DNA of 64,000 bases from Curvibacter microcysteis (GTDB lineage Bacteria; Pseudomonadota; Gammaproteobacteria; Burkholderiales; Burkholderiaceae_C), in assembly GCF_028649455.1 (NCBI RefSeq), contig NZ_JAQSIO010000001.1:868001-932000 (forward strand). The letters run 5' to 3'. Every line of letters starts with the position of its first letter. Positions within the stretch are counted from its first letter, which is position 1. The notes below the pieces were generated by a model. It saw nothing but the letters and a program-made list of their open reading frames with translations. It did not search any database and had not been told where the DNA came from. This document shows positions 2,104 to 16,118 of the stretch, piece after piece. A program made the translations under genes and the position numbers.

Positions 2104-2532
2104 TCAGAAGGGCTTGACCACCACAAGCACCACCGCAATCAAGAGCAAGACCACCGGAACTTCATTGAACCAGCGGAACCACACATGGCTGCGACGGCTT
2201 TGGCCTGAAACCAGCTTGCCCAGCAGCCGCGCGCAAGCATGGTGGTAGCCCACAGCCAGCAGGACCACCAAGAGCTTGGCATGCATCCAGCCGTTGCCCG
2301 GGCCTCGACCAATGCCGTAGCCCAGCCACAGCACCGCACCCAAGACCAAGGCGGGCACGGCCAACAGGGTGGTGAAACGCAGGAGTTTGCGCGCCATCAG
2401 CAGCAAACGCTCACGTTCGGCAATGGAGCCTTCTTGCACCAGAGCCAAGTTGACAAAAATCCGAGGCAGGTAGAACAAGCCGGCAAACCAGCTGGCCACG
2501 AAGACGATGTGTAGGGCTTTGATCCAGAGCAT
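2104..2532 (-). CDS. hemJ: Protoporphyrinogen IX oxidase HemJ (CopD-like)
   Basis: A 142-residue protein with four membrane helices. The N-terminus carries the HemJ hallmark: LHIVFVASWFAGLFYLPR, with the conserved His and the YLPR motif. The middle carries WMHAKLLVVLL and YHHACARLL, also typical. HemJ oxidises protoporphyrinogen IX to protoporphyrin IX, the penultimate step of heme synthesis, in the inner membrane. The nearby hemB agrees with this role. I chose the ATG at 2532 rather than a longer frame because homology begins there and a promoter (TTGCCT, 16 nt, TACACT) ends 6 nt before it, so the mRNA is probably leaderless. Confidence 0.92.
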   Translation of the reverse strand: MLWIKALHIVFVASWFAGLFYLPRIFVNLALVQEGSIAERERLLLMARKLLRFTTLLAVPALVLGAVLWLGYGIGRGPGNGWMHAKLLVVLLAVGYHHACARLLGKLVSGQSRRSHVWFRWFNEVPVVLLLIAVVLVVVKPF

Positions 2533-2538
2533 GGCCTC

Positions 2539-2566
2539 AGTGTAGGGCCTGAACAGGCCCAGGCAA
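2539..2566 (-). promoter_or_regulatory. hemJ promoter with palindromic spacer
   Basis: On the minus strand, TTGCCT (2561-2566) and TACACT (2539-2544) are separated by exactly 16 nt. That spacer is a perfect palindrome, GGGCCTGTTCAGGCCC (2545-2560). The -10 ends 6 nt before the hemJ ATG. A repressor bound between the hexamers would block initiation; the regulator is not known. Confidence 0.6.
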
Positions 2567-2611
2567 GTCGCGTGGTGCCATGCCCCCAAGAAGCACGCGT
2601 TCGCCCAGGGG

Positions 2612-2712
2612 CAAAAAAAAACCCAGCCATCGGGCTGGGTTAGGAAGCCTTTTTGCTGTCACACATCAAGGCACCCGCTCAGGGAGGAAAAGCGGGGAGC
2701 AGCAAGCTGCCC
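2612..2712 (-). ncRNA. candidate small RNA with CCUCC loop
   Basis: A minus-strand transcription unit of about 100 nt with no convincing reading frame. It has a good sigma-70 promoter upstream and an intrinsic terminator at its end. Predicted structure by eye: a 5' hairpin GGGCAG/CUGCUC closed by a CUUG tetraloop; then CCCGCU pairing with AGCGGG around a loop UUUCCUCCCUG; then an unpaired linker; then the terminator stem. The loop carries UCCUCCC, an anti-Shine-Dalgarno sequence typical of trans-acting sRNAs that bind ribosome binding sites. It lies between hemJ (same strand, downstream) and hemB (divergent). It could also be a leader of hemJ, but hemJ has its own promoter. I cannot assign it to a named family. 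Confidence 0.7.
2613..2640 (-). terminator. intrinsic terminator of the candidate sRNA
   Basis: ACCCAGCC (2621-2628) pairs with GGCTGGGT (2633-2640) across a 4-nt loop. On the minus strand the stem is followed by a run of at least eight T residues (2613-2620). The T-run is on the minus-strand side only, so it ends leftward transcription coming from the 2.7 kb region. Confidence 0.88.
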
Positions 2713-2718
2713 AGACGT

Positions 2719-2747
2719 AATTTAGCAAAGTGAGGAAGTGATTTCAA
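2719..2747 (-). promoter_or_regulatory. sigma-70 promoter of the candidate sRNA
   Basis: On the minus strand TTGAAA (2742-2747) is followed after exactly 17 nt by TAAATT (2719-2724). The predicted start is the G at about 2711-2712, giving an RNA that begins with GGGCAG. The surrounding 2720-2850 stretch is strikingly AT-rich for this genome. Confidence 0.75.
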
Positions 2748-2805: not shown

Positions 2806-3914
<1,109 letters not shown>

Positions 3915-15134: not shown

Positions 15135-16118
15135 TCAGGGCCGAACCACCACGGGCGGCGGGGTGAAGCCGGGTTCACCTGGGCCTGGCAGCATCTGGCC
15201 CGCCCCAAACAGCAGCGACTGAGGGTTGTCATTGAGCCCGGTCGCGGTGCGCCCCAACTGACGCACCGTGCGCGAAGCGTCCTCCGCCACCCGGTTGACG
15301 CGCGGCAAGGTGGTCGAGCCCAAGGTGTCGACCACGTGCGAGAAGGCGTCGGCGCTCTGGGCAATGCGGTCGATGGGGCCGTCCTTGTCGTTCAGGCGCT
15401 GGGCCGTCTGCGTCAGCGCGTTGGACATGCGCCCGAGGTCGGTCGCCGTGCCTTGAAGGCCTTTCAAGGTGACGGTGGCCTCGTGGGCCAAGGCCGGGAC
15501 CGCGGCCAGGGCCGGGTCCAATCGGGTCTGCACCGTCTGGTTCAGGCTGGCCGTGAGCTGGGCCGAGTTCTCAGACACCTTGGCAAGGTTGCTCAGCAGG
15601 AGCGACAAACGCTTTTGGTTGTCGTCCGACAAGGTCTGGTTGATGCGCACCGTGGCTTCGTTGATCTGCGCCAGCAACTCAGGGGCCTGCTCGGTCATTT
15701 TGCCGAGCTGCGAAGTCACCAGTGGCAGACGCGGCAAGCCGTCTTCTCCAGGCTCTTGCCGGGCCTGAGGGGCGCCCGCATCGTCCAGCAACACATAGGC
15801 CAAACCGGTCACACCTTGGTAGGCCAGGGTAGCGTAGGTGGTGGGCCCCAAAGGGGTCTTGTCCTCCACTTGGATGCGGATCAACACATTGCCCTTGGCT
15901 TGGTGGTCAAAGCTGATGCTCGTGACCTTGCCCACGCCCACGCCCTTGTAGCGCACGGCCGCCTGGGGCTGCAGGCCGGTGATGGCGTCCCGGGTGGACA
16001 GCTCATAGTTTTGGTACTTGCCCTTGTCGCGGGTCAGCCAGATCACCAGCGACACCAGCATCAGGGTGACCACCAACACAAAAGTGCCAGCGGCCATGGC
16101 GTGAGATTTGTTTTCCAT
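15135..16118 (-). CDS. MlaD/MCE domain protein
   Basis: A 327-residue protein with one N-terminal membrane anchor (TFVLVVTLMLVSLVIWL), then an MCE domain at about residues 37-120 (ITGLQPQAAVRYKGVGVGKV and AYQGVTGLAYVLL), then a long helical region with regular Gln/Asn/Thr-rich heptads (about 140-300) and a Pro-rich tail. MCE proteins form hexameric rings or tubes that carry lipids across the periplasm. The long helical tail would build a tunnel toward the outer membrane. The ATPase gene lies 18 nt upstream in the same operon. Confidence 0.93.
   Translation of the reverse strand: MENKSHAMAAGTFVLVVTLMLVSLVIWLTRDKGKYQNYELSTRDAITGLQPQAAVRYKGVGVGKVTSISFDHQAKGNVLIRIQVEDKTPLGPTTYATLAYQGVTGLAYVLLDDAGAPQARQEPGEDGLPRLPLVTSQLGKMTEQAPELLAQINEATVRINQTLSDDNQKRLSLLLSNLAKVSENSAQLTASLNQTVQTRLDPALAAVPALAHEATVTLKGLQGTATDLGRMSNALTQTAQRLNDKDGPIDRIAQSADAFSHVVDTLGSTTLPRVNRVAEDASRTVRQLGRTATGLNDNPQSLLFGAGQMLPGPGEPGFTPPPVVVRP

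Follow-up and report, generated by a model that had tools for sequence, protein, structure and literature searches.

The window, i.e., the whole 64-kb stretch of DNA that was analyzed, encodes on its minus strand a small RNA that is a member of an already known family, anti-hemB (RF02837). We consider it probable (roughly 0.75 for the reading taken as a whole) that this is an autonomous RNA gene whose loop pairs in trans with Shine-Dalgarno regions, with the involvement of Hfq, and that the gene lies beside hemB by descent. On the computational side, this reading is based on a promoter-like site, a predicted structure of three hairpins plus terminator, stems that covary among relatives, and an exposed loop, UCCUCCCU, that is essentially invariant.

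Identification of the RNA

In an Rfam scan, RF02837, which carries the name "anti-hemB (Burkholderia RNA 7)", matched positions 2613-2698 of the minus strand at a score of 66 bits (cut-off 49.5). The E-value is 4.2e-15, or 3.3e-13 when the whole window is scanned, and the alignment is full length (model positions 1-81 of 81), covering both hairpins and the terminator. No other Rfam match in the 64-kb window exceeds its cut-off. A preliminary description of this DNA had presented the RNA as an orphan that belongs to no named family; given the RF02837 match, we reject that status. The location is also that of an anti-hemB RNA: the predicted 102-nt transcript, supported by the Rfam match, the fold and our own covariance model (R1), occupies 2612-2713 (-), and hemB (PF00490, PRK09283) lies on the opposite strand at 2880-3914 (+). 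R1 scores the RNA at 98.9 bits (E 2.8e-30), where the window sequence is itself part of the R1 alignment. Membership in a related-looking family, RF02278, is rejected, as the score is 24.2 bits and the cut-off 50.

Over the whole genome to which the window belongs, RF02837 has one match above its cut-off and one below it (29.1 bits, C1:474905). The place of the latter is that of an RF02278 member (C1:474901-474963, +; 70 bits against the cut-off of 50), so that this genome has another CU-rich RNA, likely of the same type. There is also an RF02278-like candidate at C9:165811-165883 (-), which is CU-rich in its 5' part and has a terminator; it scores 37.9 bits against the cut-off of 50, and sub-threshold RF02278 matches are unspecific, in that the same search gives matches in 11 of 14 control genomes.

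Promoter, secondary structure and terminator

The preliminary description had proposed a separate small RNA gene with a minus-strand promoter, a CUUG-capped 5' hairpin, a hairpin whose loop exposes UCCUCCC, and a terminator formed by a stem and a T run, and each of these elements was recovered. A promoter scan places the sigma-70-like site TTGAAA-17-TAAATT at 2719-2747 (-), with a predicted start near 2712-2713; it is the only such site in 2500-2900, where 0.3 are expected from shuffled sequences. Hairpin 1, with its CUUG loop, is predicted at 2697-2712 (-), almost entirely outside the Rfam match. Hairpin 2 (2674-2696, -) has the 9-nt loop UUCCUCCCU, which holds UCCUCCC at 2682-2688 (-), and all seven of these bases are unpaired with a probability of 0.996-1.0 in the predicted fold. 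This segment is a candidate anti-Shine-Dalgarno seed; CCUCC is the same core as that of the 16S anti-Shine-Dalgarno sequence. The preliminary description did not list hairpin 3 (2647-2672, -), which presents UGACAGC at its apex. The intrinsic terminator (2612-2641, -) has a 9-bp stem, a loop of 4 and a T run.

Taken alone, the terminator scan is no better than chance, as it finds one such site in 2500-2900 (2641-2620, then T's), with 0.6 expected from shuffles. The fold of the 102-nt RNA has an energy of -43.9 kcal/mol (z = -3.95; 1 of 200 shuffles is as stable), and the opposite strand of the gene folds at z -2.50. It is because of the Rfam match and the covariation in relatives, which extends to the terminator, that the RNA stands above chance. 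One listed open reading frame of at least 60 aa, at 2397-2630 (-), partly overlaps the RNA; it runs into hemJ as well, in a different frame, and seems to be a product of chance.

Conservation in relatives

R1 was built from an alignment, A1, of 73 sequences gathered with the exact core motif; five loci with identical sequences, as well as the long sequence L141, had been excluded beforehand. Invariance of the core within A1 rests on motif-picked sequences, and what we say of the loop rests instead on an R1 search of named hemB loci. These loci are the best 80 of at least 588 HemB relatives, and they lean to close relatives.

Among these best 80, 57 have an R1 match at E <= 3e-12, in every case on the strand opposite hemB. 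In 56 of the 57, a distance of 45-251 nt separates the 5' end of the RNA from the HemB match; in the remaining locus (L082) it is 1475 nt. CCUCCCU is present in all 57 copies at the best 80 loci, of which 45 had been found by the exact motif and 12 more were found by R1. The most independent support for invariance of the loop comes from these 12 copies from the best 80 of at least 588 relatives, all of which keep CCUCCCU; they comprise 11 distinct sequences, with L132 and L134 being alike. Variation immediately 3' of CCUCCCU is seen in two loci (L085 and L120).

To these 57 matches, the alignment A2 adds 4 weak ones (E 0.05-0.13) from the same best 80 loci, giving 61 sequences. In A2, 20 of the 22 pairs are altered on both sides, 96.7% of cells pair, and none of 500 shuffles equals the alignment on even one of five measures, although A2 was fitted to R1's structure and is therefore biased towards it. 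The helix of hairpin 2 is 98.7% paired, with 5 of its 7 pairs altered on both sides, and for the terminator this holds for all 8 modelled pairs, again among relatives from the best 80. Paired substitutions, which the preliminary description had named as a check on its proposal, are thus present at the hemB loci of relatives. The stem beneath the conserved loop varies, e.g., CCCCGC, CCCUGC and CCACGU, and the alignments support the view that the CCUCC loop is more conserved than its own stem. A constant loop on a covarying stem suggests pairing with something outside the RNA.

Other parts of the RNA differ among lineages. TGACAGC in hairpin 3 occurs in 47 of 74 collected, motif-picked sequences and is absent from Burkholderia-type copies; UGACAGC is possibly a second, lineage-specific seed. 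For hairpin 1, paired variants in relatives were recognized by eye (GGGCAG/CUGCUC, GGGCGG/CCGCUC and GGACGG/CCGUCC). Promoters were compared in 24 rows picked for a -10-like hexamer, one of which (L005) repeats another (L001). In these rows, a TTG-type -35 box and a -10 box of the TAAATT or TTAAAT type occur in the four other genomes of the genus that are above the cut-off, and the same box types occur in Variovorax, Ramlibacter and Caenimonas loci. Other lineages have different sequences upstream of the RNA.

Distribution and unlinked copies

Within the genus, RF02837 has a match at E <= 1e-3 in all nine genomes (that of the window included), and this match is above the cut-off in five. Three of the genomes (G006-G008) have a single match each, of 28.9 bits, and these matches look RF02278-like, as judged by eye from one of them. 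RF02837 was found in 249 of 299 genomes sampled from the family, with 233 above the cut-off, and at E <= 1e-4 in 216 of 300 sampled from the order, with 190 above the cut-off. R1 has matches in 206 of the same 300 genomes, and therefore the Rfam model already spans the range of the RNA and R1 adds no reach. From this R1 search, 20 loci were retrieved. None of the 14 control genomes has a match above the RF02837 cut-off; sub-cut-off matches occur in 3 of the 14 in the searches at the level of the own genome, the genus and the family, and in 1 of the 14 in the order search.

No R1 match was found in 23 of the best 80 of at least 588 hemB loci, where the neighborhood of hemB alone was searched. 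The loci lacking the RNA include those of Comamonas testosteroni, Delftia, Polynucleobacter, Rugamonas and Methylophilus. In C. testosteroni (L072) and Delftia tsuruhatensis (L073), the adjacency of hemJ and hemB is kept and the RNA was not found there, which makes these loci useful natural controls.

Copies also occur away from hemB. We inspected 29 family loci (L033-L061) drawn from the 30 best-scoring, the thirtieth being L010, a choice that may favor genomes with extra copies. In 14 of the 29, no HemB match lies closer than about 1.5 kb, and 13 lack both hemB and hemJ over this distance, although one locus (L041) is cut on one side by the end of its contig. One genome (G095) has five copies according to R1 and six RF02837 matches. 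Its copies by R1 are at 1944-2030, 15493-15578 and 15677-15759 of one fetched stretch (L250), at 1791-1879 of a second (L251) and at 2063-2147 of a third (L252). The L251 copy is beside hemB and hemJ, another contig (L250) holds three copies, with about 100 nt between two of these, and the L252 copy is on a third contig; among the fetched stretches, hemB is in L251 only. Four of the five copies contain CCTCCCTGAG, which is missing from the L252 copy.

A search of the genus for TTCCTCCCTGAG gave 10 occurrences in 6 of the 9 genomes. Five of these are RF02837 copies above the cut-off, two (L146 and L149) give no similar fold, and the other three are at L147 (G003), L153 (G004) and L154 (G002). 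These three loci are predicted to encode shorter RNAs in which the same CUUUUCCUCCCUGAG is carried by different stems and which have their own terminators, and we predict that they are loop-sharing siblings of the anti-hemB RNA. In the examined genomes, most copies away from hemB retain the loop, and therefore trans action, as the preliminary description had proposed, is the mode of action favored by the sequences.

Search for targets

Pairing of the loop was ranked over 339 crudely called start regions, false open reading frames included, in 464 kb of sequence (the window and a 400-kb sample); a lower percentile means better pairing. The two possible starts of hemB rank at the 66th and 73rd percentiles and the hemJ start at the 26th. 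Pairing of the loop with hemB and hemJ is ordinary, where the ranking is weak evidence either way. With these crude calls, the 1st, 5th and 50th percentiles are -15.5, -13.2 and -7.9 kcal/mol for the real loop, against -16.9, -14.5 and -9.4 kcal/mol for shuffled loops, so the real loop pairs less well on average.

The exact complement of 8 nt of the loop, in the pattern AGGGAGGA-N3-11-ATG, occurs at 3 sites in the own genome, where the reversed pattern has 0. In the nine genomes of the genus (own included), there are 40 sites, against 7 for the reversed pattern. Among the 30 of these 40 sites that were read, there is one group of four orthologues, whose proteins have 174-187 aa and which we take from their sequence to be exonuclease-like. 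The same 30 sites include one pair of 36-aa open reading frames and one pair with a similar site but open reading frames of 6 aa only; the remaining read sites have no relative elsewhere in the genus set. Two neighboring sites appear in both L177 and L185, which are overlapping loci. The gene of the four-orthologue group is present in 6 of the 9 genomes, and its site is altered in G004 and G005, both of which have the gene; G005 also has the RNA. Because the full site is missing from these two genomes, we do not claim the gene as a target. The pattern GGGAGGA-N3-11-ATG has 22 sites, against 8 for its reverse, and ordinary Shine-Dalgarno usage would account for this surplus. These searches of the own genome and the genus name no target for the anti-hemB RNA. 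This outcome, the rarity of exact sites in the own genome, the altered site in G004 and G005 and the weaker average pairing of the real loop count against the reading that we favor.

Alternative explanations

The position of the RNA in the window would also suit a cis-acting leader or attenuator of hemJ (2104-2532, -; PF03653 at 140.4 bits, cut-off 34.2; TIGR00701 at 106.2 bits, below its cut-off of 138.05), whose terminator keeps transcription from reaching hemJ until some signal has been sensed. The RNA is on the strand of hemJ, its terminator is about 80 nt before the hemJ start, and hemJ adjoins the RNA in 27 of the 57 RNA-positive loci among the best 80 of at least 588 HemB relatives. However, the downstream gene is not constant: hemJ was not found beside the RNA in the other 30 of these 57 loci, one of which (L087) ends at the end of its contig. 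Among eight hemJ-less loci that were inspected, the RNA adjoins a gene on the other strand in four (L101, L103, L105 and L117), which we take from its sequence to be EngB-like, and in others, e.g., L121, a same-strand open reading frame follows. Moreover, hemJ is near hemB with no RNA between them in five of the best 80 loci (L072, L073, L076, L078 and L095), and both genes are absent from the surroundings of the 13 family loci described above. On this comparison of neighbors, we reject a hemJ leader as the general role and regard it as very unlikely. Given variable neighbors and unlinked copies that keep the loop, a cis role on either hemJ or hemB is unlikely as a general one.

Regulation of hemB itself, by pairing with the start region of its mRNA or by antisense interference from the divergent promoter, is somewhat less improbable, but we still consider it unlikely. 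It is favored by the opposite-strand linkage in 57 of the best 80 loci, by hemB being the predicted target of the B. cenocepacia RNA Bc7 according to a review (PMC6321483), and by the presence of GGAGG in 8 of 57 hemB stretches with the RNA versus 0 of 23 without it (best 80 of at least 588). On the other hand, the two hemB starts rank as ordinary for loop pairing, and the window shows no overlap between the RNA gene and hemB. The hemB stretches run from -101 to +60 of the start of the HemB match, so that a late match start leaves less upstream sequence covered, and GGAGG occurs in 9% of random window stretches. By eye, five of the eight GGAGG cases (L068, L088, L110, L111 and L128) belong to the complementary strand of the RNA gene itself, and the other three (L096, L105 and L107) are about 50 nt before the start; no GGAGG at Shine-Dalgarno distance was seen in the hemB stretches examined from the best 80 loci. 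Neither the ranking nor this reading of GGAGG supports hemB as the target of the loop. The link to heme genes made in the preliminary description is consequently not supported, as hemJ is beside the RNA in fewer than half of the RNA-positive loci and pairing with both genes is ordinary. Least probable of the three is a sponge for a protein such as CsrA/RsmA or a decoy for other small RNAs. The conserved loop and compact fold would suit protein binding too, but CsrA-type sites need GGA, which the 102-nt RNA does not contain, and the CCUCC core of the loop fits mRNA pairing.

Related RNAs

The anti-hemB RNA of B. cenocepacia, ncS04, is 105 nt long; its start site was mapped and it was studied by 3' RACE and in a Northern panel (PMC5688073, which also cites earlier work for its binding to Hfq). 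Table 2 of that paper gives ncS04 as not significantly changed in biofilm, stationary phase, starvation, glucose medium, osmotic stress, low pH or low iron. No condition therefore hints at a role, and the result for low iron speaks against the link to iron in the preliminary description. The text of section 8 of the same paper names no ncS04 targets. Anti-hemB is tabled among the B. pseudomallei homologues of known RNAs (PMC3521395). The review that reports hemB as the predicted mRNA target of Bc7 does so for a set of 24 B. cenocepacia RNAs that copurified with Hfq (PMC6321483), and we infer that the Rfam name derives from Bc7. PMC10987360 mentions neither ncS04 nor hemB, PMC7011215 names RF02278 but not hemB, and the term "RF02837" was not found in the open-licence literature searched. 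In the portions of this open-licence literature that we covered, no shown target is given for the anti-hemB family.

The window RNA shares with RF02837 and ncS04 its sequence and structure over the whole model, the adjacency to hemB, the loop CCUCCC and the terminator. It differs from the anti-hemB RNA of Burkholderia in having an extra 5' CUUG hairpin and the lineage-specific UGACAGC in hairpin 3. Downstream of it is hemJ, whereas the inspected Burkholderia loci have the presumably EngB-like gene on the other strand.

CU-rich RNAs that repress via ribosome-binding sites have been described for Bordetella (S17; PMC11722255, a preprint) and for the NmsR siblings (PMC5362039), and ncS27 is a CU-rich RNA with the same anti-Shine-Dalgarno logic (PMC5688073). 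The RF02278 RNAs (ncS27 and bdhR1, with Bordetella S17 being similar) resemble the window RNA in that a short, CU-rich unpaired sequence faces the Shine-Dalgarno sequence and an intrinsic terminator is present. This family, the Betaproteobacteria toxic small RNA or double-hairpin RNA, differs from it in the order of the hairpins and in the loop sequence, in keeping with the low RF02278 score. Likened by their described features, Neisseria NmsRA and NmsRB also have UC-rich anti-Shine-Dalgarno sequences that act in trans, but they have two such regions, one of them between stem-loops (PMC5362039).

Implications

In the mechanism that we favor, the loop would pair in trans with several mRNAs, at Shine-Dalgarno regions that resemble GGGAGGA. 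Hfq would assist this pairing, as may be supposed from the Hfq binding reported for ncS04 only, and the pairing would block ribosome binding, such that translation is repressed. The adjacency to hemB would be a matter of descent, and hemB would not be the target. A broader idea is tentative and, as a whole, we hold it to be rather doubtful: anti-hemB might be not a regulator of hemB but an order-wide module in which the loop UCCUCCCU stays constant while stems and neighbors change, and which is copied into new stems and loci to give siblings that share one Shine-Dalgarno seed. UGACAGC would then add lineage-specific targets in Comamonadaceae-type copies.

RF02837 is widespread in the Burkholderiales, with matches in 216 of the 300 genomes sampled from this order. 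The family name suggests hemB, for which the loop gives no support. Dropping hemB as the presumed target would shift target searches to ribosome-binding sites throughout the genome and to the sibling copies.
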